Below are positions 24,720 to 39,445 of a stretch of DNA of 51,110 bases, in pieces. Source of the stretch: Desulfovirgula sp. (GTDB taxonomy: Bacteria; Bacillota; Desulfotomaculia; Desulfotomaculales; Nap2-2B). Both the position numbers and the translations under genes were made by a program. The notes below the pieces were generated by a model. That model was given only the letters and a program-made list of their open reading frames with translations. It searched no databases and was not told the origin of the DNA. The first letter of the stretch is position 1; each line of letters starts with the position of its first letter. The DNA lies in assembly GCA_020725585.1 (NCBI GenBank), contig DYES01000075.1:1-51110 (forward strand), in the 5' to 3' direction.

Positions 24720-25472
24720 TTATGAAAAGTAGCCCATTTTCTGGGACAGCTGGTCGGCAGCGCGCTTCACCTCGCCGATTAAAACCGGCAGCCTCTCTTC
24801 GTTTAAGCGGCTCTTCAAGCCGATGATTCCTAAAGAAGCCCTGGCCGAGCCGGAAAAATCACGCACGGGGGCCGCAATGCCGATGCCGTAGTTGAGATAG
24901 TCGCCAAAGGAAACGGCGTATCCCTGCTCCCGGATCTTTTTGATCTCCTCCGCCAGCGCCTCCGGGCCGGCGCTTTTAAACTCCCCCTTCTCAGCCATCT
25001 CCTTTAAATACGTCCGGATAAAATGGTCGTCCATAAAGGACAGCAGGGCCTTTCTGGCCGCGCCGCTGTGCAGCGGCATCTCCTTGCCGACCAGTTCGAT
25101 GACCTTCACCGGATGGGGCCCTTCGACCCGCTCCAGGAAAACCCCCATCTTGCCCTGCGCGACGGTCAGGTAGGAATCCTCGCCGGTGCGCGCCGTAAGC
25201 TCTTTGAGCACGGGCAGCGCCGCCTTGCGCAGGTCCAGCATCCCCCTGACCTGCAGGCCCATCTTTAAAAGCTGCGGGCCCAGCCGGTAGTTTTTTGTTT
25301 CGGGGCTCTGCTCGACCACCCCAAACTCCTTAAACGTCTGCAGGAGCCGGTGGACCGTGCTGGGTGGGAAGCCTGTTCGGACAGCCAGCTGCCTTAAGGA
25401 GAGGCCGTCCTCCGTCCCCTCTTCGCAAATGGCCAGCAGGACTTCTAAACCTTTCCGCAAGGTGCTGCTCAT
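24720..25472 (-). CDS. IclR-family transcriptional regulator
   Basis: The protein of about 250 residues has an N-terminal winged helix (SLRQLAVRTGFPPSTVHRLLQTF at about 28-50) and a C-terminal IclR ligand-binding domain (GEDSYLTVAQGKMGVFLERVEG, then REQGYAVSFGDYLNYGIGIAAPV). IclR proteins usually sense a small acid and control a local catabolic operon. ATG 25472 is chosen from three in-frame starts (TTG 25481, ATG 25478, ATG 25472) by ribosome-site spacing to AACAGG. It lies directly upstream of the acyl-CoA synthetase with almost no gap, so it probably shares that mRNA. Confidence 0.9.
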   Translation of the reverse strand: MSSTLRKGLEVLLAICEEGTEDGLSLRQLAVRTGFPPSTVHRLLQTFKEFGVVEQSPETKNYRLGPQLLKMGLQVRGMLDLRKAALPVLKELTARTGEDSYLTVAQGKMGVFLERVEGPHPVKVIELVGKEMPLHSGAARKALLSFMDDHFIRTYLKEMAEKGEFKSAGPEALAEEIKKIREQGYAVSFGDYLNYGIGIAAPVRDFSGSARASLGIIGLKSRLNEERLPVLIGEVKRAADQLSQKMGYFS

Positions 25473-25565
25473 CGGCATCAACCTGTTCCAGATAGTAAAA
25501 TGAATTCCAATATATGAATTAAATTAGACACTTTTTCTCTTTTTCCTTCTGTCCTGATCCAAAAT

Positions 25566-27212
25566 TTATTTTAAAAATCCTATTGCTTCTGTGGAAACAA
25601 CCATTTGGCCGTCTCTTTTCCTGATTAGTGTGTGCTTACGCCAGTTGGCGTCGTCCTGCCGCGGAAAATCCAGCCGGTAGTGGGCGCCCCGGCTTTCCCG
25701 CCGCAAAAGGGCCGACCGGACAATCATTTCGGCTACCAGCAAAAGGTTGCCGCTCTCCAGGAACTCAACCAGTTCGCCGGGCTTTGCGGGCGCGGCTCCT
25801 GCTTTAAGTTTTTCGATGTCGGCCCGGGCTTTTTCCAGGGAATCCGCCGACCTTAAAACGCCCGCGTTTTCCCACAACGTTCGCCGAACCGCCTCTTTGA
25901 CCGCGGAAAGCGAAGGAAAAACCCCGTGTCTTCTCTGCTCCGCAAGCTTTTCACGCAGGCCTGCGTAAGATCTTTTGGCCAGGGCGCCGGCTTCGTCTGC
26001 AGAAAGGGGTGCCGCTTTTTGCCCGGCTGCAAATTCCGCCGCCGCCAGGCCCGCCCGCCGGCCAAAAACCGCTGCCTCCGTCAAGGCGTTGCCCCCCAGG
26101 CGGTTTGCGCCGTGCACTCCGCCGGCAACCTCGCCGGCGGCAAAAAGGCCGGGTATCTCCGTGCACCCCCAGGAGTCGGCCGCCACGCCGCCCATCGAGA
26201 AATGAGCGGTGGGCATTACCAGCACAGATTCTCCATCGGCCAGGAGACTGCCCGCCCAGGACTTAACTCTTTCCAGATATGCGTCGGAAACCCCCCAGAT
26301 CCTTTGCGCCCGCCGCCAGCCTTGTGCCGCGCCGCCCAAGTCTAACCTGACGGCCCCCGCGATCCCCCGCCCCTGGGCCACTTCCGCGCACATGGCCCGG
26401 GAGAGCAAATCGCGGCAAACGATCGCCACCGGCGATCTATCTATGCCGTACTTTTCTAACAAGTTCTCCCCCTCGGCGTTCAAGATCTTGCCCGCGTCCG
26501 CCAGAATCGCCAGCACAAACCTGCTGGGCCGGCCGGGCACGGCCGTGGCCAGGGGGTAAAATTGCACAAACTCCATATCGATCAGGGGCAGACCGGCCCG
26601 GTATGCCAGCGCGTAGCCATCCCCGGCGCTCCCCGGCGGGTTGTCGGTGCGCAGATAAGCGGCCCCGCCCCCGCCAGTAGCCAAAACAACGGCCCGCGCG
26701 GCAACGGCCAGCGGCCTGCCTTCCCTTCTCAAAAGCCCCCACACGCCGGCGGCCTGGCCCTCGCGCAACAAAAGATCAGCGGCTAAAAAGGGGTAAAGAA
26801 AATTTACCCCCAGGCGGCGCGCGTATTCTGCCATGGGCCTGGTGATGCGCAACCCTTCCTGGCCGACCTTCGGGGCAAAAACGAAAAAGCCCTTTTGGCG
26901 CTCAAGAATTTCCACGCCAAATTCCCGCAGGGATAAAACCGCCCGGGGAGCGTCTTCCACCAGCGCCTCCACGAGGGCGGGCTCATTTAAATGGTACCCC
27001 GCCTCTACCGTCAACCGACGGTGTTCTTCGGCGGTGAACCCGGCCACCCGGCCGCGAAAACTGCCCTGGCTGAGCGTGGAACTGCTGGCCCGGCCGGGCG
27101 TTACCTTCGAACATAACAAAACTTCCTGGCCCTTTTTTCTGGCGGCGATGGCGGCCGAAAGCCCGGCGATGCCGCCGCCCACCACCAGCACTTCCGTAGA
27201 GACAACTTCCAC
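25566..27212 (-). CDS. FAD-dependent oxidoreductase of the fumarate reductase/aspartate oxidase type
   Basis: The 548-residue protein has an N-terminal FAD-binding motif (VLVVGGGIAGLSAAIAARKKG at about 8-28), a second adenine contact (VLATGGGGAAYLRTDNP) and the substrate-site motif TAHFSMGGVAAD. The catalytic-arginine region is GANRLGGNALTEAAVFG. The histidine that carries covalent FAD in Sdh/Frd is absent (GRASSSTLSQGS instead), so FAD should be non-covalent, as in L-aspartate oxidase. No iron-sulfur or membrane subunit is nearby. Placed after a TRAP transporter, it may oxidise or reduce the imported acid. GTG 27212 follows GGGGGG. Confidence 0.85.
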   Translation of the reverse strand: MEVVSTEVLVVGGGIAGLSAAIAARKKGQEVLLCSKVTPGRASSSTLSQGSFRGRVAGFTAEEHRRLTVEAGYHLNEPALVEALVEDAPRAVLSLREFGVEILERQKGFFVFAPKVGQEGLRITRPMAEYARRLGVNFLYPFLAADLLLREGQAAGVWGLLRREGRPLAVAARAVVLATGGGGAAYLRTDNPPGSAGDGYALAYRAGLPLIDMEFVQFYPLATAVPGRPSRFVLAILADAGKILNAEGENLLEKYGIDRSPVAIVCRDLLSRAMCAEVAQGRGIAGAVRLDLGGAAQGWRRAQRIWGVSDAYLERVKSWAGSLLADGESVLVMPTAHFSMGGVAADSWGCTEIPGLFAAGEVAGGVHGANRLGGNALTEAAVFGRRAGLAAAEFAAGQKAAPLSADEAGALAKRSYAGLREKLAEQRRHGVFPSLSAVKEAVRRTLWENAGVLRSADSLEKARADIEKLKAGAAPAKPGELVEFLESGNLLLVAEMIVRSALLRRESRGAHYRLDFPRQDDANWRKHTLIRKRDGQMVVSTEAIGFLK

Positions 27213-27242
27213 AGGGAAACCCCCCTAAACTAAAAAACCCTG

Positions 27243-27291
27243 AAAAATACAACTCTTGTTGCTGCCGGGACAAAGCCGCGGCAGCAACAAG
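27243..27291 (-). terminator. Hairpin/terminator between dctP and the flavoprotein gene
   Basis: CTTGTTGCTGCCG (27255-27267) pairs perfectly with CGGCAGCAACAAG (27279-27291). On the minus strand a TATTTTT tract follows about six bases after the stem. It probably gives partial termination, raising dctP mRNA relative to downstream genes. Confidence 0.65.
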
Positions 27292-27315
27292 AAACGCCCG
27301 CTGTCTTTTCAGCTG

Positions 27316-28398
27316 TTAGCTCTTGACAATTTCTTTGCAGACTTTCTCAAACTCCTCGTAGACTTTCTTGCCGGGGAGCCCCTTCTTTTCCATGTCCTGG
27401 ATCCACTCATTCTCTATTCCTTTGAGGGGCTCGCGCCACTTTTTCTGCTCTTCCGGCGTCAAACGGTAGATGACCATGCCCTGTTTTTCAAATTCCACGG
27501 CCAGCTCTTCTTGCTGTTTGTCAATCACTTCCCCCGCGTGCTTGCTGGTTTCTTCGCCGGCCTGCAGCAGCGCCTTTTGAATGTCGGCAGGCAGTTTCTC
27601 CCACGTTTTTTCGTTAATCACGTAGGCCACCGGGTAACCTCCAAAGGCCGCCCCCAAGGTGTGGTATTTTTCCAGCTCGTAGACCCGGTAGCCTTTGACG
27701 CTCACGTAGCTTAAGAAGTTTCCTTCCACGATCCCCCGCTGGGTAGATTCGTATATTTCAGGAGAAGGAACCACCACGGGCGTTACGCCGTATTTCTGCG
27801 CGATTTTATCGTAGATGCCGCCCGAGGTCTTGATCTTCATTCCCTTGAGGTCCTCCGGCGATTTGATTTGCTTTTTCACGGTGCCTACGTCGTACTGGGG
27901 CGTCGTGTACACAAAGATTGGCCTTACGCCGTACTTTTTAAATTCATCCATCAACACGCCGCCGGCGAGACGGTGGTAAATGGCGCTCCCTTCTTTAGCG
28001 GTAGTGTAGTTGGGGAGTACCATGACGGTATTGAGCGGCAGCTGGCCCGCCAAAAAAGTAGGGGCGACGTAAGCGATGTCGGCTACACCCTGGCTGGTGA
28101 GGTTCAACAGGTCTTTTAATTTACCCAGCTGCTCGGCGGGGTAATACTCGATTTTAACCTTTCCGTTGGTGAGCTCCTCCGTGCGCTTGATAAAAAACTT
28201 CGCTATGTCGGCCGAAAAGAGATGCGTTACCGGAAAAGAATCGGCCATTTTTAATTTGATCTCCTGCTGTGCCTCCTGCTTCGCCTGGGGCTGCTCCTTC
28301 TTCTCTTCAGCAGCCTTCTGGCCGCCGCATCCGGCAGCCAAAAGCGCAACAAACGCAAAAAGGGCGGCTGCCGCCAAAAGGCGCAAAAACTTTTTCAT
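27316..28398 (-). CDS. dctP: TRAP transporter substrate-binding lipoprotein (DctP type)
   Basis: The 360-residue protein begins with a lipoprotein signal peptide (MKKFLRLLAAAALF to LLAAGC) and a charged linker. The DctP fold follows (IKLKMADSFPVTHLFSADIAKFFIKR, then EDLKGMKIKTSGG with the conserved arginine region altered, and VEGNFLSYVSVKGYRVYE). It delivers a carboxylic acid to DctQM from outside the membrane. Two conserved-region tyrosines and an EKYHTLG segment fit the family. AAGGAGG precedes the ATG. It is third in the order dctQ-dctM-dctP. Confidence 0.92.
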   Translation of the reverse strand: MKKFLRLLAAAALFAFVALLAAGCGGQKAAEEKKEQPQAKQEAQQEIKLKMADSFPVTHLFSADIAKFFIKRTEELTNGKVKIEYYPAEQLGKLKDLLNLTSQGVADIAYVAPTFLAGQLPLNTVMVLPNYTTAKEGSAIYHRLAGGVLMDEFKKYGVRPIFVYTTPQYDVGTVKKQIKSPEDLKGMKIKTSGGIYDKIAQKYGVTPVVVPSPEIYESTQRGIVEGNFLSYVSVKGYRVYELEKYHTLGAAFGGYPVAYVINEKTWEKLPADIQKALLQAGEETSKHAGEVIDKQQEELAVEFEKQGMVIYRLTPEEQKKWREPLKGIENEWIQDMEKKGLPGKKVYEEFEKVCKEIVKS

Positions 28399-28536
28399 TT
28401 TTAATAATACCTCCTTCTTTACTTTCGAGCCTTAGATACCATAAGGTTCTGTGCACAGCGCTTCACCTTTTACGCCGCATCCTTCCGGACCCATCCACCT
28501 CCCTCCAAGAAAATATTATGAAAATGATTGATTAAC

Positions 28537-29826
28537 TCAGTACTTCATGAAAGACGGCAGCCAGGTGGCAATGATGGGGAAGGACAACAGCAAACCGAGA
28601 GTGACCACCTCCATCGCCAGCATGACCCCCGTTCCCCGGAAAACCTGATCGAGGGGGGCTTTTACAGTGGCGCTCACCACATAAGCGTTTAATCCTACCG
28701 GAGGCGTTACCAGGCCTATTTCGTTCAGCTTGGTAACAATCACGCCAAACCAGATGGGATCAAACCCCAGGCCGGTCACCAGGGGAAAGGTCAGCGGGAG
28801 CGTCAACAGCAAGATGGCGATCTGATCCATGATGCAGCCGAGGATAAGGTATAAAACAACTATGCAACCCATGATCGCCCAGGCAGGAATCTGGGACTGG
28901 CCGATATAATTAATCACCTTTTGGGTGGCCTGCGTGAGGGTAAAAAAGTACCCGCAGACCATGGCGCCGATAATAATGGTAAAAATCATGGTGGTTATTT
29001 TCGCCGTCTGCAGGGCGGCTTCGTAAAGCCCTTTCAAATTAATCCGGCGGGTTGCCGCGGAAATCACCAGCGCGCCAAAAGCGCCAATCGCCGCGGCTTC
29101 CGTCGGGGTGGCCACACCGGCATACAGAACGACAATCACTACGGAGCCCAAAATAACAAACGCCCACAAAGGACGGAGCGAGGCAAATTTTTCCGGCCAG
29201 CTGTAAGCCTGGCCGCGGGGCATTACACCTGGAGAAACTTTGTTCCAGAGGATAATTCCCAGGCAGTAAACCAGGGCGGTCAAAAGACCGGGAAGAATAC
29301 CGGCGATAAGCAGTTTGCCGATGGACGTTTCGGTGGCGATGCCGTAGATGACCATCGGTATGCTGGGTGGGATCATCACGGCCAGGGTGCCGGCTACGGC
29401 CACGATCCCCGTCGAAACCGTGAGCGAATAGCCCGCCTTGCGCATCTCCGGCACCGCGATGGCGGACATGCAGGCCGCCGAGGCCGTGCTGGAGCCGGAC
29501 ATGGCGCCCATGCCGGCGGAGGCGAAAATAGTAGCCATCGCCAGGCCCCCGGAAACCCGCCCCAACCATTTCTCGGCAGCGATAAAAACCTCCCTGACGA
29601 TGTTGGCCCGGGAAACAATCTCCGCCATCAGGATAAACATAGGCACCGTGGTCAGCGAAAAATTTGCCGCCGTGCGGAAAGGCGCGTTGCTCATGATGCT
29701 CAAGACGGCGTCCGGGCCGCCCTCTAAAAACAGGCCGATAATGCCCGCCACGCCCATGGCAAAACCCACAGGCATCCCCACAAACAAGAAGAGAAGAAGC
29801 AGGATCAGCACTGAAGCAACGATCAT
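28537..29826 (-). CDS. dctM: TRAP transporter large permease subunit (DctM)
   Basis: The 429-residue, highly hydrophobic protein has about 11-12 membrane helices, and the DctM motifs GAMSGSSTASAACMSAIAVP and GTLAVMIPPSIPMVIYGIAT are plain. It is the sodium-coupled transport channel of a TRAP system. ATG 29826 has GGAGG seven bases upstream. The TTG at 29832 is rejected as lying between them. The 5' end is 22 bases from the dctQ stop codon. Confidence 0.93.
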   Translation of the reverse strand: MIVASVLILLLLFLFVGMPVGFAMGVAGIIGLFLEGGPDAVLSIMSNAPFRTAANFSLTTVPMFILMAEIVSRANIVREVFIAAEKWLGRVSGGLAMATIFASAGMGAMSGSSTASAACMSAIAVPEMRKAGYSLTVSTGIVAVAGTLAVMIPPSIPMVIYGIATETSIGKLLIAGILPGLLTALVYCLGIILWNKVSPGVMPRGQAYSWPEKFASLRPLWAFVILGSVVIVVLYAGVATPTEAAAIGAFGALVISAATRRINLKGLYEAALQTAKITTMIFTIIIGAMVCGYFFTLTQATQKVINYIGQSQIPAWAIMGCIVVLYLILGCIMDQIAILLLTLPLTFPLVTGLGFDPIWFGVIVTKLNEIGLVTPPVGLNAYVVSATVKAPLDQVFRGTGVMLAMEVVTLGLLLSFPIIATWLPSFMKY

Positions 29827-29848
29827 TGACAAACCTCCGCCTATTTAG

Positions 29849-30358
29849 TTAATGCTCCTCCCACTTTACCGAGGAAGGAATAAAGATCGCCTGAATAATT
29901 CTTACGCACAGCAGTGCGGAGCCCAAAGTCAGGAGAAAATAGGCCGGGGCCAGCGGGTAGGCCAGGATGCAGGCGGAAAACTCGCCAAACCGGACGGCCC
30001 TTAGCGTAGTCTGCCAGCCCATGATAGCGATGAGGGCAAAAAAGACCAGGGCCAAAAAGTTTAAAAATATATCCAGAGGCAGCTTCACCCGCTCCGGAAA
30101 AAACCTCCGAAACAACACGACGCGTACGTGCCCACCCTGCATAAAGACATAGCTCATAGCCAAAAAAACCAGGGCAATCATTAAATATTCTTCGGTGATC
30201 TCCACTACGCCGGGAATCGGGTGGTTGAAAAACTTCCGTCCCGTTACGTCGGCGGTGACCAGCAGCATCATAACTAATACGCTGCACACACTCAAAGCGG
30301 CGCAGGTTTTTTCCAGAACATCGATTGCCTTCCCCAAAATGCTTAAAACGGAGCGCAT
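29849..30358 (-). CDS. dctQ: TRAP transporter small permease subunit (DctQ)
   Basis: The 169-residue protein has four predicted membrane helices and the DctQ features RKFFNHPIPGVVEITEEYLM and GHVRVVLFRRFFPERVK. It pairs with the DctM encoded downstream to form the membrane part of the transporter. ATG with GGAAGG upstream. It follows the IclR gene by about 50 bases. Confidence 0.9.
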   Translation of the reverse strand: MRSVLSILGKAIDVLEKTCAALSVCSVLVMMLLVTADVTGRKFFNHPIPGVVEITEEYLMIALVFLAMSYVFMQGGHVRVVLFRRFFPERVKLPLDIFLNFLALVFFALIAIMGWQTTLRAVRFGEFSACILAYPLAPAYFLLTLGSALLCVRIIQAIFIPSSVKWEEH

Positions 30359-30406
30359 AGAACCATACCCTTCCTGATAACTTTAAAGGATAACTTTAAA
30401 GCACGT

Positions 30407-31165
30407 TCAGTCCTTACACCCCAACTGCCTGGAAATCTTCCGCCCCCCTTCCAAAAGCAGCTTAATGCAGTAATCCATTTTTTCCGGTTCCGCCCGGATT
30501 TCCGGCATGCCAATCGATAAACTCGCCGCTACCTCCTTGAACCGGTCAAAAACGGGAACGCTGATGGCCACCAGTCCCTCGTTCCGTTCCCCCCGGGTAA
30601 CGGCATAGCCCTTTTGCCGGATTTCGGCCAGCCTGGCGCGCAGTTTTTCTTTGTCGGTTTCCGTATTTTTCGTAAAGGGTTTCAGTTCTAAACTATCGAT
30701 AATTTTCTCTCTTTTCAGATCATCTTGAAAAGCCAGCAAAACCAGTGCCGAAGCCCCTGCGTAGAGAGGGGAACGCTGCCCGATGTCCACCGAAGCCTTC
30801 ACCGGGTGCGCGCAATCCAAAAACTCCACGCACACCCGCTCTCCTTCGGAGATTATGTTCAGGTGGACGGCTTCGTTGGCTTTATCCCTGATCTCCCGCA
30901 TCACCGGCAGGGCGGCCGCGCGCACCTCGATCTGGCCGACCACGATGCTCCCCAGGTCAAACAGGCGCATTCCGAGTTTGTATTTTTTTGTTAATTTGTT
31001 CTTTCTTAGCATTCCAAATTTTTCTAAAGTATTTAAAAGGCGCAAAACGGTTGGCTTCGACATTTTCAATTCTTTGCTTAACTCCGCCAGGCCCCATTCC
31101 GGTTGTTCCCTGCTGAATTTACCGAGAATGACCAGCGCCTTTTCCACTGAACCGACAGTTTTCAT
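30407..31165 (-). CDS. IclR-family transcriptional regulator
   Basis: The 252-residue protein has a winged helix (GLAELSKELKMSKPTVLRLLNTLEK at about 25-49) and an IclR effector domain (EAVHLNIISEGERVCVEFLD, GQRSPLYAGASALVLLAF, RQKGYAVTRGERNEGLVAISVPV). It is first in the TRAP operon and probably controls uptake. It resembles the IclR at 32977-33741 more than the one at 24720, with the shared pattern GQRSPLYAGASA, suggesting a duplicated pair with related ligands. Confidence 0.91.
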   Translation of the reverse strand: MKTVGSVEKALVILGKFSREQPEWGLAELSKELKMSKPTVLRLLNTLEKFGMLRKNKLTKKYKLGMRLFDLGSIVVGQIEVRAAALPVMREIRDKANEAVHLNIISEGERVCVEFLDCAHPVKASVDIGQRSPLYAGASALVLLAFQDDLKREKIIDSLELKPFTKNTETDKEKLRARLAEIRQKGYAVTRGERNEGLVAISVPVFDRFKEVAASLSIGMPEIRAEPEKMDYCIKLLLEGGRKISRQLGCKD

Positions 31166-31368: not shown

Positions 31369-32964
31369 TTAGGCGATGGGCCTGGTCACCGAGTAAGAAA
31401 GACCAAAAGTAGGTATCCAGGCGGAATGCTTTCCCGCTCCCCCGGCCACTAGAATGTTCAGATCGGCCGCCTCGCGGCAAATCCCGATGGTCTGGTTCTC
31501 GTCAACGTAGCCGGCAGCATCCGGCAGCCAGCTTTTGATGTGCGCGAGCTGCCCGGGGGACATTTTCGAAGCAGGCACCCTCGCCCGGGCGAACAGAAAA
31601 CGGCGCACGTCCTCTTTGCTCCAACCGTCCCCGGCGATGGTGGCCGCGTGCTCAGGCCCGAGGAATAAAAATGCGTCCCCCTGGTGGTAAAGATTATTGT
31701 TTCCCGTGGTGGCCATCGTCCCGGCAATTGTCGTTAAGATCCCTTCGGCGTCCGTGCTCCCGTGGTCGTTGACGTTGTGCGGAGCTTCCGCGGCCACGAC
31801 GGTTACCGTGCTTGCTTCGCGCGGGTACCCCCTCTCCACATGAAAGGGCGGCCAGGGGCTTTCTGCTTCGTTTTCCGCCACACAGTAACTGTATTTACCG
31901 GGCTGGCCCATGGTGGACTTGTCCAAAAGGCCGGGCACTCCCCCGCCGATATTCTGCAGGATCAAGCGCATGGCCCGGCCGATGGTGGCGTTGGCCCGCC
32001 AGCCCTGTCCAAAGCAGTTATGCCCGGCGTTAATCTCTAATTTTCCGGCCGCCGGGCCGTTGACGATTAACAGCACGCCGCAGGGGTGGGTGGTCGACTG
32101 CACGCCGTTGAGGTTGAAGCGGGGGTCCAGTACCGCCTCGACGCCCGCCAGGACCACCGGCAGGTATTCTGGGAGGCATCCGGCCAGGATGCAATTTACG
32201 GCCACCTTTTCCACCGTCACGTCCGCCCAGCGGGGAGGCATCCGGCCGATCACTTCCTGCGGCTGCCTTGTGCCGGCGTGGCGCAAGAACTCCTCTAAAG
32301 CCTTTTCCGTGGGCAATACCACGGGCAGGCCGTCCGTCCAGCCCTGCCGATAAAAATAATCCGCCGCCTGCTGCGGATCGGAAAAAGTCAAGCGCTCCGG
32401 CTGGATTTCCCGTTCAGGGGGCAAACAAGCGCCGGCCTCTTTCCCGGCGGACGCCGCGAGCTGCTTGCTCAGCCTTTCCAAAGCCACCTTGACCGCCGCC
32501 TGGACCTCCGCTTCCTTCAAACCGCCCAGAGGGTGGGGAATGACCAGAAAAGCAAGGCCGCTTTTTTGCAAAGCACAGGCCTGGGCCCTGGCCAGAGCAG
32601 TAAAACGATCGGTAATCACCGTAACCGTGCGCACGCCTTTGTTTTCCAAAACCACCGCGTCGTGGACACTCCACGAGGCGCAAGACCCTCAATCGCCCAC
32701 ACCGTTAATCACAATTTCCGCCCTTTCGGCAAGCTCATTCAAGAGATCCTCCGGGGCGGGGTGGGCCGAGCTGGCCTTGGCTGCTCGCACAATGGAAGCG
32801 GGACGGAAACGGGTCAAAACAAGGTCGGCCAACCGGTCAAAGAGAAAATCAACGTTTGGCTTGTTGTTGCTTAAAAAAGCCAGGCGCTTCCCCTGCAGTA
32901 CAAAGGGAGCAGATACCGCCTCTTCCTTTGGCGGGTGTGCTGCGGGATTGCAAACCACCAACAT
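31369..32964 (-). CDS. UGSC-family selenoprotein, long form (TGA at 32689-32691 read as selenocysteine)
   Basis: Codons 32964-32692 read MLVVCNPAAH to EIVINGVGD. An in-frame TGA follows, then GSCASWSVHDAVVLENKGV, giving the motif U-G-S-C that names this family (Sec92, Cys95). The frame then runs uninterrupted to 31369, 531 residues in all. Reading TGA as a stop would leave a 91-residue stub and an orphan whose first start (GTG or TTG) lies past the motif. The long C-terminal part (from YFYRQGWTDGLPVVLPTEKA, with VNCILAGCLPEYLPVVLAGV) is an uncharacterised domain often seen with UGSC proteins. ATG 32964 has AAGGG eight bases upstream. It follows IclR by 12 bases. A redox role for the Sec/Cys pair is inference. 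Confidence 0.87.
32657..32691 (-). other. Selenocysteine TGA codon and SECIS-like hairpin
   Basis: After the TGA (32689-32691), bases 32676-32671 (TCGTGG) pair perfectly with 32665-32660 (CCACGA) around the 5-base loop AGTGT. A lower stem GCG/CGC is separated by a two-base bulge. The apical loop starts 19 bases after the TGA and has G at its second position. Both fall within the known limits for bacterial SECIS elements read by SelB. Confidence 0.75.
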
Positions 32965-32976
32965 ATTCCTCACCCT

Positions 32977-33741
32977 TCAATAAAGTTTGTACCCCAGCCG
33001 GCGGGATATCTCCCGGGCGCCCGCTTTGACCAGCTCAACAAAAAAAGGAATGTTTTTATCGTCCGCGCGCACCGTTGGCAGGCCGATCGCCAGGCTGGCC
33101 GCGATCTCCTCCTGGTGGTTGAAGACCGGCGCGCTGATGGAAAAAACACCGATAATCAGCTCGCTGTTGCTGACGGCGTAGCCTTTCTTCCGGATGTCGG
33201 CCAGCTCCGCTTCCAGCTGCACCGGATCGACAATTGTCCGCGGGGTGAGCGCTTTTAATTTTACCTTCGCCAGAAATTCCCTTCTTTTATGCTCCGGCAA
33301 ATAGGCCAGCAAAACCTTGGCGGAAGCGCCTGCGTAAAGGGGGCTTCTCTGCCCCACAAAGACGACCCGCTGCAGCTCTTGATTTGATTCCACGTACTCT
33401 AAGCACATCCGCTCGTCGTTTTCAATTATGTTTAAGTAAACGGCTTCTCCGGAGCGGTCCCGGATCTCTTTCATGACCGGCAGGGAAACTTCGCGAATTT
33501 TTAACCGCCGCTGAACAATATTTCCCAAATACAGCAATTTCGTGCCCAGGCGATATTTTCTTGTGTTCTTGTCTTTTTCCAGATAATTAGTCTTTTCTAA
33601 AGTTGCCGTCAGCCTGATGACGGTTGTTTTCGGCATGCCCACCAGGGCAACGAGCTCACCGATGCTTAATTCCGGCCTTTCTACTGTAAATGATTCTAAA
33701 ATTTTGAACGCCTTCAAAACAGAACGGACGTCATTTTCCAT
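32977..33741 (-). CDS. IclR-family transcriptional regulator
   Basis: The protein of about 254 residues has a winged helix (SIGELVALVGMPKTTVIRLTATLEK) and an IclR effector domain (EAVYLNIIENDERMCLEYVE, GQRSPLYAGASAKVLLAYLP, RKKGYAVSNSELIIGVFSIS). ATG 33741 is used. A TTG at 33747 is possible, and both have weak ribosome sites. It ends in TGA, an ordinary stop that shows TGA is not globally recoded. It lies between the acyl-CoA dehydrogenase and the selenoprotein genes, with 19 and 12 base gaps, so all three are one operon. Confidence 0.9.
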   Translation of the reverse strand: MENDVRSVLKAFKILESFTVERPELSIGELVALVGMPKTTVIRLTATLEKTNYLEKDKNTRKYRLGTKLLYLGNIVQRRLKIREVSLPVMKEIRDRSGEAVYLNIIENDERMCLEYVESNQELQRVVFVGQRSPLYAGASAKVLLAYLPEHKRREFLAKVKLKALTPRTIVDPVQLEAELADIRKKGYAVSNSELIIGVFSISAPVFNHQEEIAASLAIGLPTVRADDKNIPFFVELVKAGAREISRRLGYKLY

Positions 33742-33760
33742 AACCAATCATAAGCCCCCG

Positions 33761-34921
33761 TTACCTGCGCTGATCGAACCTTCTCCCCAGCAAGGCGGAA
33801 GCTATGTTGATTCGCTGGATCTGAAGAGTTCCGCCGGCCACCGGCCAGCCGCGGGAGTCGCGGACCATCCTCTCGATGGGGTATTCTTTAGAATACCCGT
33901 AGCCGCCGTGGATCATGAGGGCCATGTCGGTTACCTCTTTGGCGATTTCCCCGGCAAAGCATTTCGCGATGGAAGAATGGAGCACGGAAGGATAGCCCTG
34001 GCTGGCGTTGACGGCGGCGCGGTAAATCAGCAGGCGGGCCGCCTCCACTTTCATGACCATGTCGGCCAGCATGAACTGCACCGCCTGAAATTCGCAAATC
34101 GGCTTTCCGAACTGCTTTCTTTCCTGGACGTACTTGATGGATTCCTCCAGCGCTCCCGCCGCCAGGCCCAAAGACATGGTCGCGTTGCCCAGGCGCTCGA
34201 TGTCAAAGGCCCGCATTAAATCTTTGAAACCGCCCTCTTGAACGACCAGATTTTCTTTGGGCACCCGGCAGTCTTCGAAAATGAGGTCGCAGCTGGGAAA
34301 GCCCCGAAAGCCCATAAAGCGCTCCTGCTTGCCGAAAGTAAAGCCGGGGGTGCCCTTTTCAATAATCAGCCCGCCGATTCCCTTGGCTCCTTTCGCCTCG
34401 CTTAAGCGCACGTAAACCACGTAGGCCTGGGAATGGCCGCCGCCCGAGCAAAACCTCTTCTGGCCGTTGACCACGTAATAATCCCCGTCCAAAACCGCCC
34501 TGGTTCTCAGGTCGGTCAAAGCCGAGCCCGCTTCCGGTTCCGTCATTCCGACCGAGATCATGATTTCGCCGCTCGTTACCCGCGGCAGGTATTTTTTCTT
34601 TTGCTCTTCCGTGCCGAACAGGTGAATGACCCGCGCCGGCCCCACGTTGGCCTCAAAAATGGGAAAAGCGGCCAGCGGCGAAACTTTGGCAATTTCCTCA
34701 ATCACTAAAATGGCCTCGAAGGCCGTGAGCCCCTGGCCGCCGTACTCCTCCGGCAGCGTTATCCCTAAAAGCCCCAAATCGGCGTACTTTTGAATAATCT
34801 CGTCCGGGACAAACACTTCCTTTTCGTCCCACTCGCCGGCATAAGGCCGGATCTCCTTTTCCACAAAATCGCGCACCATGTCCTTGAGCATTTTTTGTTC
34901 ATCGGTAAGCTGGAAATCCAT
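33761..34921 (-). CDS. Acyl-CoA dehydrogenase with relocated catalytic glutamate
   Basis: The 386-residue protein has the ACAD signatures VGMTEPEAGSALTDLRTRA and MIHGGYGYSKEYPIERMVRD. At the usual base position the expected Y-E-G-T reads A-G-G-T (Gly363). A glutamate instead occurs at residue 242 in FDIERLGNA, the helix-G position that supplies the base in isovaleryl-CoA and long-chain dehydrogenases. A branched or bulky acyl-CoA substrate is therefore likely. ATG 34921 (MDFQLTDEQ) matches family starts, and GGGGTG lies 10 bases upstream. ATG 34951 adds ten unlikely residues. It heads an operon with IclR and the UGSC selenoprotein. Confidence 0.9.
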   Translation of the reverse strand: MDFQLTDEQKMLKDMVRDFVEKEIRPYAGEWDEKEVFVPDEIIQKYADLGLLGITLPEEYGGQGLTAFEAILVIEEIAKVSPLAAFPIFEANVGPARVIHLFGTEEQKKKYLPRVTSGEIMISVGMTEPEAGSALTDLRTRAVLDGDYYVVNGQKRFCSGGGHSQAYVVYVRLSEAKGAKGIGGLIIEKGTPGFTFGKQERFMGFRGFPSCDLIFEDCRVPKENLVVQEGGFKDLMRAFDIERLGNATMSLGLAAGALEESIKYVQERKQFGKPICEFQAVQFMLADMVMKVEAARLLIYRAAVNASQGYPSVLHSSIAKCFAGEIAKEVTDMALMIHGGYGYSKEYPIERMVRDSRGWPVAGGTLQIQRINIASALLGRRFDQRR

Positions 34922-35026
34922 CCGAACCGCACACCCCTCTATCCTAAACATAAAATTTTGTCTTTAAACTATTTTCATATTTCGCAATTACATATTTGAC
35001 TCTTAAGGTTTTCACTCTCCGGCGAT

Positions 35027-35165: not shown

Positions 35166-36029
35166 TTAATCTAAACCTAAAAGCCGGGCCGGGTTTTCGA
35201 CAAGCATGCGCCGGATCTGGTCCGGTCTTATCCCCGCCTGGAGCAATAAATTGACGAAATCGATCATGCCGGCCGCCGGGCGCGGGTTGCCCGGCTGCCC
35301 CAAATCGGTGACCAGCACGCAGTGCTGTGCTCCGGCAGCGTTAATGCCGTCTGCCATCTGCTTTGCCGAAACGTCCCCCGTGATCACGTTAAGGTAGCAT
35401 TTTTCCAAAAAAGCCCCTTTACCGGCCAGGGTGAGTTGATCCTCCAGGGGCAAGCCGATAAATGCAGCGTCGGGATGGTTGACCAGCAGCTTTTTCACGC
35501 CCACCTCCAGAGCGCGGTCAACCAGAGCCTTGATTTCCTCTGCGCCCAAATGCCCGGTAGCCACCACCGCGCCGGCCCGGGCGGCCAGGCGCAGAATATC
35601 AATTACCTGGGGGAAAAGCTTTCCCGGAGAAGCAAAAATCGAAAGACCTTCTCTGGCCGGCCCCGCCTGCGGGGTAAACGGGCCTTCGCCATGCCTTTTT
35701 AAAAAATCAAGATAATTCTGTGCGGAAATAGTCGGAAACCAGACGAACTTTGCGCCCATGGAAAGGGCCGCTTCCACCGCCCAAACGTTAAACCCGCCTA
35801 CCTGGTGATTGAGAACGATCCCTCCGTAGGCCGCCGCCCCGCCGGCATATTTGTGCGTCAAATTAGCGCGTGCAACGCTGGGGCACTCGTGGGCTTTAAT
35901 CACCACCGCCCGCATCCCCGCGGCACGCGCTTCGCGGGCCAGCTCAAAATCATCCAGCGCGCGGTGAAAAAGGCTAGGAGCGCAGTGGGTGTGCAGGTCG
36001 ATGGCGCCCGCCGGCAAAAAATTGGCCAA
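35166..36029 (-). CDS. DUF6282-like metal-dependent hydrolase (amidohydrolase/PHP-like)
   Basis: The protein of about 287 residues begins MANFLPAGAIDLHTHCAPS, with His13 and His15 as likely metal ligands. Further metal-type motifs are VIKAHECPS, VLNHQVGG, VATGHLGAEE, VNHPDAA and VTDLGQPGNP. The layout is a TIM-barrel hydrolase. I place it in the DUF6282 type from memory of this motif order. The TTG at 36029 is chosen because GGGAGG lies eight bases upstream. The TTG at 36035 is too close. It follows the second TRAP permease gene. Hydrolysis of a cyclic amide, lactone or amide in the imported substrate is inference. Confidence 0.8.
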   Translation of the reverse strand: MANFLPAGAIDLHTHCAPSLFHRALDDFELAREARAAGMRAVVIKAHECPSVARANLTHKYAGGAAAYGGIVLNHQVGGFNVWAVEAALSMGAKFVWFPTISAQNYLDFLKRHGEGPFTPQAGPAREGLSIFASPGKLFPQVIDILRLAARAGAVVATGHLGAEEIKALVDRALEVGVKKLLVNHPDAAFIGLPLEDQLTLAGKGAFLEKCYLNVITGDVSAKQMADGINAAGAQHCVLVTDLGQPGNPRPAAGMIDFVNLLLQAGIRPDQIRRMLVENPARLLGLD

Positions 36030-36211
36030 AACCAAGACCTCCCTAAATTCTACCTTAAAAATCTACGTTCTTTGATGGGCCTAAAATAGACTTAAAATTA
36101 ACTTTCCCAAACTTAATCCAATATAAAAGAACCCTACAGAACCACTTTCGTCAAAATTTTATTTTTCCCTTTTGTTTCCGGTTTGTTTTTCGAAACAGTT
36201 TTTACAGTATT

Positions 36212-37483
36212 TTATTTCACCAGCATTAAGCTTAATTTCGGTACATAAGTCACCAGCAAAAGAACCGCCACCATGACCAAAGCAAAAGGAATGGCCCCCC
36301 ACAGCACCTTCTCTATTCTTTCCCTGGTGATCCCGCTCAAAATAAACAAATTCATACCCAGCGGAGGCGTAATCAGAGCCAGCTCCATATTAATACAGAA
36401 AATGACTGCAAAATGAATGGGATCGATCCCCAGCTGGCGCATGATGGGCAAAAAGATAGGCGAGGTTAAGAGCAAAATGGAAGTGATATCTAAAAAACAA
36501 CCCAAGATCAGGAGAATTCCGTTCACGATCAACAAGAAGGCCACCGGCGAAAGGTCTCCGGCTAAAACGGCAGCGGTAACCGTCTGGGGAATTTTCAACA
36601 TGGTCAACACGTAGCCAAACACGGTCGCCCCGCCGATAATCAACAGAATCATCGCGCTGGAACCGGCGGACTCCCCCAGCACCTGGATAATATCTTTGGG
36701 CTTGAGCCCTTTGTAAATCACCAGGGCGCACAAAAAAGCATAAACCACGGACATTCCCGCCGCTTCGGTGGGCGTGGCGACCCCCCCGTAAATTGTCCAG
36801 GCAATCAAAACGGGCAATAAAAGCACCCAAAAGGCTTTTTTCAACGCCCGCCACTGCTCCGGCCAGGGCGCTCTCTTTACGCTGCGGGCCGCCTGGTCCC
36901 GGCCAAAAACGATCATTCCGGCAAAGATTAAAGCCAAGGCGAGAATTATCCCCGGGATCACGCCGGCCAAAAATAGTTTGCCTACCGACTGCTCCGCAAC
37001 CGTCCCGTACACGATCATCGGTATGCTGGGAGGAATTAGAATGCCCAGCCCTCCGGCCACGGCGATGATCCCCAACGTGTATTTGGTGTTGTAGCCCCTC
37101 TTAATCATCTCCGGAGCGAGCACAGAACCGATGGCCACCGCGGTAGCCGAGCTGGAGCCGGAAATAGCCGCAAAAAAAGCGCAGGCGATGACGGCTACCG
37201 TGGCCAAGCCCCCGCGCAGGTGCCCAAAAACCTTTTCCACCGCTTCGATTAAATAATTGGTCACTCCCCCGCGCACCAAAACGTCGGCGGCCAGGATAAA
37301 AAAGGGGACGGACATCAGGGTGAAACTGTCCACGGAGACAAACATCATTTGGGGAACAGCCGTTAAGGCACTGGGCCCAACCATCAGGTAGAGCAGAAAC
37401 AGACCGGCCAGGCCGAGAGAAAAAGCCACCGGCAGGCCGCACAACAAAAAAACAAAAAGGGTAATGATCGCTAAAGCCGTCAA
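36212..37483 (-). CDS. dctM: TRAP transporter large permease subunit (DctM), second system
   Basis: The protein of about 423 residues is highly hydrophobic, with DctM motifs AAISGSSSATAVAIGSVLAP and GGLGILIPPSIPMIVYGTVA. TTG 37483 has AGGTG seven bases upstream and begins directly at the first helix (MTALAIITLFVFLLCG). The TTG at 37519 would add 12 polar residues. It is the last transporter gene in the order dctP-dctQ-dctM, unlike the first TRAP cluster. Confidence 0.92.
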   Translation of the reverse strand: MTALAIITLFVFLLCGLPVAFSLGLAGLFLLYLMVGPSALTAVPQMMFVSVDSFTLMSVPFFILAADVLVRGGVTNYLIEAVEKVFGHLRGGLATVAVIACAFFAAISGSSSATAVAIGSVLAPEMIKRGYNTKYTLGIIAVAGGLGILIPPSIPMIVYGTVAEQSVGKLFLAGVIPGIILALALIFAGMIVFGRDQAARSVKRAPWPEQWRALKKAFWVLLLPVLIAWTIYGGVATPTEAAGMSVVYAFLCALVIYKGLKPKDIIQVLGESAGSSAMILLIIGGATVFGYVLTMLKIPQTVTAAVLAGDLSPVAFLLIVNGILLILGCFLDITSILLLTSPIFLPIMRQLGIDPIHFAVIFCINMELALITPPLGMNLFILSGITRERIEKVLWGAIPFALVMVAVLLLVTYVPKLSLMLVK

Positions 37484-37604
37484 AAAGGCACACCTACTTT
37501 CCCTTAAATCACCTTGCAATTAAAAATTCCCACATGCCTGATTGCTAGCTCCTTAATTACTTCATTACCTTACCTTACTTTATTTAAGCCTTTTACTTTT
37601 CAAA

Positions 37605-38126
37605 CTATCTTTTTGAACCGCCTTCCAAAGAAGATGAGCTGGCTAAACTAAGAATATTTTCATAAACTTTTTGGCAAAAACGAAAAAGCATCAAAATGCC
37701 TCCTGCCGGGACGGCCAGTTGGGGTATGTACATGGGGAGCTGCAGGCTGGACATGGAGGTGGCGCCAACGCGAATCGACTGCTGCACCAGCCCCCAACCC
37801 TTCACGGCCAACAGCGCGCAAAAAACAACCCCTAGAAGATAAGCAAACGTCTGCAAAATTAAGCGCTGCCTTTTTGCCAGGCGGACAATTAAAACATCAA
37901 TGGTGATGTGCCCGTTCCTCCTTAAAAGAGCGCTTCCCCCGATAAAGGTTGACCAAATAATCAGATAGCGAATAATTTCTTCAAAGGCAGAGACTGAGTA
38001 GTGAAATAAATACCTGAGCACCACTCCGATAAACACCAAAAGAGAAGCCGCTCCCAAAGAAATTCCGGACAGCCAGATCTCGGCGGTATCGACAAACCCG
38101 AGCAGAGAAGAAAATTTATTGCGCAA
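37605..38126 (-). CDS. dctQ: TRAP transporter small permease subunit (DctQ), second system
   Basis: The 173-residue protein has four predicted helices with DctQ-type features (YLFHYSVSAFEEIIRYLIIW, RRNGHITIDVLIVRLAKRQR). The start is TTG with AGGAGG eight bases upstream. A 217-bp gap separates it from dctP upstream. That gap has a G/C-rich patch but no clear terminator or gene. Confidence 0.9.
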   Translation of the reverse strand: MRNKFSSLLGFVDTAEIWLSGISLGAASLLVFIGVVLRYLFHYSVSAFEEIIRYLIIWSTFIGGSALLRRNGHITIDVLIVRLAKRQRLILQTFAYLLGVVFCALLAVKGWGLVQQSIRVGATSMSSLQLPMYIPQLAVPAGGILMLFRFCQKVYENILSLASSSSLEGGSKR

Positions 38127-38343
38127 AAATCAGCCCTCCTAAGGTATGTGATCAAAAGTATAAAATCCAAATTACGAACTAGATCTTAGGATAATTTTGC
38201 TCTTGCAAAACATTAACGAAATTTGTTGCGGGGGTATCGGCAGGGCAATTCTTTTTCAACTCAAAAACCATTATCCGCCCCGGCGCCGGCACCCCCGAAA
38301 AACATTCCTTGGGAATACATTTAGTTAAATCTTTAAATCTAAT

Positions 38344-39384
38344 TTATTTAATGCTCCTCACCTTGGCGATTAACTCCTGGCCGATCGCTTTCCCGTATTC
38401 GTCATAGACAGCCTGCAACGCCTTTACCCATCGCTCGTGCTCCTCGGGGGCCAGCTCGTGGATCTGCATGCCGCCCTCCTGAAGAGTCTTTAAAGCATTT
38501 GCTTCCTGGCTCTCTAATTTCTGCCGGTTTTGCTTGGTGGCTTCCGCAACCGCTTCCTGCACAACCTTCTTTAAATCGTCCGGCAGAGAGTTCCAGAACT
38601 GCAAATTCATCACCACTGGATAGGCAATGGCGCTGATGCGCACTTTGGTCAGGTGCTTGGTAATTTCGTAATACTTGTTGGGCGCCGCGTAAGTTACCGT
38701 GGTTAAGGCGCCGTCCACAATCCCTTGTTCAAGGGCCAGGTATAATTCACTGGCCGGCATGGTAATTGCGCTGCCCCCCAGAGCTTTAATGCTGCTTTCT
38801 AAGATCCTCGTGTGCGCCCGGATTTTTTTGCCTTTTAAGTCGGCAATTTTCACGATCGGCTCCTTGCTGAACAAATCCAGAGGAATGTTGGATATGTAGC
38901 CTAACCCTTTCACGCCCTTAGGTTCCAGCATGGCCAGCAGCTCCTTGCCCACATCGCCGTCTTGAAACTTATACAGCGCCTCCTGGCTGGAAAACATCAT
39001 GGGCAGGTCAACTACCTGGAACTGGGGAACAACTGCCGACACGTAGCCTGTGCTGGGAATGGCCATCTGAATTAAGCCGTTAATCACCGCCTGAAAACCG
39101 GCTTCTTCAGAGGCATACAGCTGCCCCTGGTGAAAAAGCTCCACCTTAATTTTACCGCCGGACTTTTCTTCCACCGCCTTCTTGAAATCCTCCGCCCAAA
39201 CGCCTTTGCTGTGGGTAGCCGGGGACTCGTGAGCAAGCTTAATTACGTAAGTTTTGTCCGCACCTTTTTCGCCGCCGCCGGCCTGCTTCTCCTCCTTCCC
39301 GCCGGCGCCGCAGCCGGCCAGCAGCGCAAGGGCAAAAAGAACCGCCAGGAACAAGCAAGACACTCGAAACTTATTGCCGGCCAT
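38344..39384 (-). CDS. dctP: TRAP transporter substrate-binding lipoprotein (DctP), second system
   Basis: The 346-residue protein has a lipoprotein signal (FLAVLFALALLAGC), then a charged glycine-rich linker. The DctP fold follows: YVIKLAHESPATHSKGVWAE, ADLKGKKIRAHTRILESSIK with the conserved arginine in KIRAHTR, and LALEQGIVDGALTTVTYAAP. This is a more typical DctP than the one at 27316. ATG 39384 has GGAGG ten bases upstream. It follows the D-glutamate-cyclase-like gene by about 60 bases and so is probably co-transcribed with the AtuA set. Confidence 0.92.
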   Translation of the reverse strand: MAGNKFRVSCLFLAVLFALALLAGCGAGGKEEKQAGGGEKGADKTYVIKLAHESPATHSKGVWAEDFKKAVEEKSGGKIKVELFHQGQLYASEEAGFQAVINGLIQMAIPSTGYVSAVVPQFQVVDLPMMFSSQEALYKFQDGDVGKELLAMLEPKGVKGLGYISNIPLDLFSKEPIVKIADLKGKKIRAHTRILESSIKALGGSAITMPASELYLALEQGIVDGALTTVTYAAPNKYYEITKHLTKVRISAIAYPVVMNLQFWNSLPDDLKKVVQEAVAEATKQNRQKLESQEANALKTLQEGGMQIHELAPEEHERWVKALQAVYDEYGKAIGQELIAKVRSIK

Positions 39385-39445
39385 CTTCAAATCGCCTCCC
39401 TTATACTGTTTTTTAATATTCTGTTTTTTAACTGTCCTTGTATTT

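Follow-up and report, generated by a model that had tools for sequence, protein, structure and literature searches.

The window analysed here, a 51,110-nt stretch of contig DYES01000075.1 from a Desulfovirgula sp., contains a reverse-strand reading frame that would be a complete gene if one internal TGA were translated. Two questions follow: is this TGA read as selenocysteine (Sec), and what kind of enzyme would the Sec-containing protein be? Our best overall explanation, to which we assign a probability of roughly 0.8, combines recoding of the TGA, an ancestry shared with the Sec proteins GrdB and PrdB, and a role as a thioredoxin-fed reductase. The features discussed are collected in Table 1.

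Table 1. Features at the UGSC locus, in window coordinates.
Feature	Position	Strand	Basis or details
UGSC-family selenoprotein gene	31369–32964	−	531 aa, one Sec (U92), Cys95; ATG start, TAA stop
UGSC domain, residues 18–169	32458–32913	−	PF24696 137.8 bits; predicted model; PDB fold search; hhalign to GrdB/PrdB
In-frame TGA, selenocysteine codon 92	32689–32691	−	Frame translation; TGA/Cys at the aligned codon of relatives
Bacterial SECIS hairpin	32656–32680	−	Core stem 32660–32676, apical loop GUG, −13.5 kcal/mol
D2, residues 189–531	31372–32400	−	Position and description agree with Unknown_1 (PMC2398784)
IclR regulator	32977–33747	−	PF01614; directly upstream of the UGSC gene, 12-nt gap
Acyl-CoA dehydrogenase	33761–34951	−	PF00441; 13-nt gap to the IclR gene
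DUF6282 protein	35166–36035	−	PF19799
TRAP carboxylate transporter DctM-DctQ-DctP, upstream	36212–39390	−	PF06808, PF04290, PF03480

A recoded TGA in a conserved frame

Translation of the window bears out an earlier note on this DNA, which had described a single 531-residue frame: the sole interruption is the TGA at codon 92, followed directly by G-S-C. As that note also anticipated, standard gene calling with table 11 cuts the frame in two, giving a 91-residue stub (94 aa if begun at an upstream GTG) and a shortened protein of 428 aa starting from a GTG at 32655. The same mis-annotation is seen for plasmid p2-T1 of Acidovorax sp. T1, where a TGA form is recorded publicly as a 96-residue hypothetical protein. 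The joined protein carries the U/C-G-S-C motif, with Sec or Cys in first position, and when searched against UGSC models, as had been proposed, it gives 126 bits with NF041046 (cut-off 125) and 137.8 bits with PF24696 (cut-off 25), the downstream ORF alone reaching only 41 bits. The earlier description of the gene as a UGSC-family selenoprotein holds for the first ~170 residues; the other two thirds form a separate, uncharacterised domain (D2), which is a known UGSC fusion partner. As a selenoprotein, it adds one more member to an established family, in a fusion type already on record.

A scan of 84,980 genomes with the fusion protein as query returned 80 loci, in 75 of which the alignment spans the Sec site. 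At the aligned codon, TGA is found in 70 of these 75 and Cys in five, comprising two Natronomonas loci (TGT) and three loci from betaproteobacterial MAGs (TGC). More Cys forms are present on plasmid records from haloarchaea, an Arthrobacter, a Variovorax and a Neorhizobium. Homologues with a true stop and a lost downstream half, raised previously as a possible objection, were not encountered; relatives keep either TGA or Cys, and the downstream half is conserved. The family scores of the joined frame, taken with TGA or Cys in 75/75 relatives, place recoding far beyond chance. The earlier claim that TGA is a normal stop elsewhere in the window also stands, as it ends four Pfam-supported genes, including the IclR gene directly upstream, whose terminal TGA sits 12 bases before the ATG of the UGSC gene.

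Among 60 relatives searched, the UGSC gene was not found in the same genus or family, and a weak match, restricted to the D2 part and containing stops, came from a single further genome in the order. From the absence of the gene in same-genus and same-family relatives, we infer that it was probably acquired horizontally. No match was found in phages.

The TGA could instead reflect a pseudogene, or a sequencing or assembly error that placed a stop into a Cys gene. The step from TGC or TGT to TGA takes a single base change, the assembly (a MAG of 2.37 Mb) is 83% complete, and close kin do not have the gene. However, TGA occupies the same codon in 70 of 75 independent relatives, the remainder of the 531-aa frame is intact and retains conserved residues, the SECIS covaries and the Sec machinery is complete (see below), leaving this explanation with a negligible probability.

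In Natronomonas, the TGA stop of the Cys-type UGSC gene is followed immediately by the in-frame ATG of the D2 gene (L037:8505-8507 and L038), a junction that is a trap for automatic read-through prediction of Sec.

SECIS hairpin and selenocysteine machinery

The earlier note was silent on SECIS elements; we see one that is both present and covarying. The window hairpin has 18 nt between the UGA and the loop and a 7-bp core stem, and satisfies the bacterial SECIS constraints published in PMC13188914. Single-sequence folding gives a z of about −0.5 to −0.9, which is uninformative by itself, so covariation is needed to judge the element. Nearly all Sec relatives have a hairpin at a constant 18 nt, with a stem of 7–8 bp and a 3-nt loop opening with G-U. 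Across 40 distinct sequences, 95.6% of cells are paired and double (both-side) changes occur in six of eight pairs (21 cells). The covariation score of 0.268 was reached by none of 500 shuffles, the best slid register scored 0.115, and RNAalifold recovers the same stem unprompted.

Judged from these alignments, coding constraint does not account for the conservation of the hairpin, because a subgroup of the L020:11273 type has swapped G-C for C-G, partly via the synonymous change GTC to GTG, L066 has rebuilt its hairpin from different bases, and the Cys relatives of L066 (L040/L044/L045) have lost it. The comparison of Sec and Cys forms is a clean example of selection on RNA inside a coding region.

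The earlier note had also proposed a check for selA, selB, selC and selD, and all four are in the genome above curated cut-offs. The selA (631 bits) and selB (403 bits) genes are neighbours on contig C56, while C6 carries both selD (394 bits, above its curated cut-off) and tRNA-Sec (72 bits), whose TCA anticodon was confirmed using ARAGORN. The selD gene (L015:1474-2529, plus strand) is a selenoprotein gene too, with one in-frame TGA in the context S-G-U-A-A-K-V. At the contig end, positions 1–64 of the window (minus strand) hold a truncated tRNA (Rfam, 42.7 bits).

C53 carries another tRNA whose body resembles that of tRNA-Sec (L002:1501-1592, minus strand; RF01852, 54.6 bits; anticodon GCA; U73), and beside it are a YedF/TusA-like ORF and seleno_YedE (TIGR04112, 495 bits). 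Its features agree with the selC*-type tRNA-Cys reported in PMC7609411. The presence of such a tRNA-Cys raises the prospect that UGA is decoded as Cys, as Trp or through general readthrough, instead of as Sec, but its GCA anticodon does not read UGA. Given also that TGA is an ordinary stop nearby, that the genome encodes a canonical tRNA-Sec(UCA), SelA and SelB, and that the SECIS is conserved, we consider decoding as anything other than Sec very improbable. By computation, it is almost certain that this is a genuine selenoprotein gene, in which SelB and the SECIS would cause UGA-92 to be read as Sec, yielding a two-domain enzyme of 531 residues.

Fold and ancestry of the UGSC domain

A thioredoxin-like fold has been guessed for UGSC proteins (PMC2398784, PMC13188914). 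In a confident AlphaFold2 model run on 39 aligned sequences (pLDDT 91, pTM 0.92), residues 27–172 form five successive beta-alpha units with strict alternation of strand and helix, and U92 is positioned at the N-end of the helix following the third strand. The predicted model departs from the thioredoxin-fold topology (beta-alpha-beta-alpha-beta-beta-alpha). A PDB fold search returned mostly flavodoxin-like or other Rossmann-type domains, with no thioredoxin among the 50 matches listed. According to the model, the UGSC domain is flavodoxin-like and not thioredoxin-like, which suggests that the published guess is wrong.

These results bear directly on what the published descriptions assume, namely a thioredoxin-fold oxidoreductase in which U-x-x-C serves as a CxxC-like redox pair acting on protein or peroxide substrates. 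The UxxC motif is indeed present, but alternating beta-alpha units run throughout the model, the best PDB matches are flavodoxin-like, and the neighbouring genes are concerned with transport and catabolism, not stress. We rate such an oxidoreductase as improbable.

Profile comparison points towards a different kinship. Using hhalign, the UGSC profile matches GrdB with a probability of 96.1% (E 3.1e-9), and a deeper UGSC set matches GrdB and PrdB together at 96.8% (E 2.7e-10). Decoy profiles from unrelated neighbour families gave probabilities of at most 1.4%, and 60 column-shuffled controls scored no higher than 29.4 vs 67.9 for the real comparison, with reversed profiles at 23. The GrdB match stays at 88% if only one of the two column sets, UGSC or HPLG, is masked, and drops to 12.6% if both are. 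This collapse indicates that the homology rests on the two motifs and their spacing over ~95 residues, and with the doubly masked signal at this level we hold homology to be likely, short of proven. On these profiles, it is very likely that the UGSC domain and the part of GrdB and PrdB that bears Sec have a common ancestor.

PF07355 (GrdB) matched neither the protein nor anything in the genome; control genomes also gave no match, but the model does score in 52/150 of the phylum. Searching the GrdB profile against the PDB found no relative. The best PDB profile match to UGSC, dihydrodipicolinate synthase (E 0.004), was rejected as a relative: nothing in it corresponds to the UGSC motif, and the fold search does not back it. 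We found no statement of the UGSC–GrdB/PrdB link in the literature searched, which left most subscription journals outside, and as far as checked both this link and the corrected fold are new relative to published work.

Second domain, gene neighbourhood and possible chemistry

No Pfam or NCBIfam model matches D2. Modelled alone, the domain has a confident fold (pLDDT 92.8), and the PDB fold search gave no confident structural relative. Its invariant residues include several Asp, Asn, Arg and Glu. By profile, no counterpart of GrdE/PrdA, the pyruvoyl part of glycine and proline reductase, was found in the 531-aa protein: identity of D2 with GrdE/PrdA was rejected at 0.1% against both, in a comparison that gave 99.5% for the positive control of GrdE vs PrdA. 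This lack of relationship between D2 and GrdE/PrdA counts against the proposed reductase reading.

The composition of D2 opens another way of dividing the labour, with D2 carrying out the catalysis, as a hydrolase or hydratase acting on an imported acid, and UGSC serving only as a redox tuner. Consistent with this, the invariant residues of D2 are polar with no invariant Cys, D2 exists also as separate genes, adjacent to UGSC in either order as well as fused to it, and in 3Di comparison it faintly resembles cyclic-amide hydrolases and class I fumarate hydratase. However, the fold matches are unusable (TM about 0.2, rmsd about 18 Å), values on which kinship of D2 with class I fumarate hydratase or the Toblerone fold was rejected, and UGSC accompanies D2 in 75 of the 80 loci, a count biased by the fusion query. 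Catalysis by D2 with UGSC as a tuner is judged unlikely.

The IclR and acyl-CoA dehydrogenase genes are likely in the same operon as the UGSC gene, and the DUF6282 gene adjoins UGSC-D2 also in Natrinema and L018. Further along this strand, past the UGSC gene, window positions 24720–31165 hold a second IclR-TRAP set (DctQ, DctM, DctP), a FAD/fumarate-reductase-like flavoprotein and a third IclR, all Pfam-supported. Across the 80 loci, the neighbours are mainly TctC receptors (24 loci), and others include CoA-transferases, MmgE/PrpD and amidohydrolases. TctC receptors are very numerous in Betaproteobacteria generally, so a TctC neighbourhood is weak evidence.

Thioredoxin reductase genes lie close to some relatives. 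The order in Arthrobacter is trxB-trxA-D2-UGSC; in Variovorax, trxB is separated from the D2-UGSC pair by two genes; and on Neorhizobium galegae pNgVX, an unannotated, frame-broken trxB-like stretch with the motif CSTC directly follows the UGSC gene (L151:10651-11581). Such close adjacency was seen only in Cys-containing relatives and at none of the 80 genome loci; the present genome has trxB, though not adjacent to the UGSC gene. Overall, the neighbourhood fits a thioredoxin-reduced enzyme in the catabolism of an organic acid taken up from outside. The probable substrate is a small organic acid brought in by the neighbouring TRAP transporter.

In the scheme we propose, the U92 selenolate would attack a substrate held and activated by D2, and a C-N or similar bond of the substrate would be reductively cleaved. 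Cys95 would then resolve the selenium adduct to give a selenenyl-sulfide, which thioredoxin and thioredoxin reductase would re-reduce. The proposed attack of Sec on carbon follows the GrdB/PrdB scheme and is drawn by analogy from known chemistry. A reductase mechanism for UGSC-D2 is moderately supported, and for the scheme as a whole we put the chances at about even. More tentatively still, and with somewhat less than even odds, UGSC and D2 might form another lineage of reductive-cleavage enzymes that depend on selenium, the third after glycine reductase and proline reductase. In such a lineage D2 would stand in for the pyruvoyl subunit as a substrate-activating domain of a new kind, and many bacteria as well as haloarchaea would use the enzyme to degrade small organic acids that they import.

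One betaproteobacterial subgroup (L066:7992-9590, L040:4885-6588, L044 and L045) has [U/C]GTS, the resolving Cys being replaced by Ser, and counts against the proposed Cys95 step. Within it, L066 has retained the TGA together with a hairpin, though one of another sequence, so that the second Cys of the motif may be dispensable for the Sec form. We found no enzymology of the UGSC family in the literature consulted. The tie to GrdB/PrdB and the thioredoxin supply would turn an orphan family into an enzyme with specific, testable chemistry.

Set beside known systems, the protein has the Sec position and UGSC motif of the family NF041046/PF24696, but most of its 531 residues fall outside the family model. 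A fusion of UGSC with a conserved domain, Unknown_1, was described in 2008 by Zhang and Gladyshev (PMC2398784, Fig. S1A), and the architecture is the same as here, where many such relatives were found; D2 is equated with Unknown_1 by position and description. Relative to that paper, the fold and the GrdB link are additions. GrdB has the same order of elements as the UGSC domain in the same register, with U-G-[ST]-C at a helix start, a G-x-P strand and (I)PHPLG, and PrdB has U-G-T-C in common with it. GrdB and PrdB (PF07355, TIGR04483) likewise have a link to thioredoxin. They differ in that only ~95 residues align, and the N-terminal region of GrdB is not found in the 531-aa protein.
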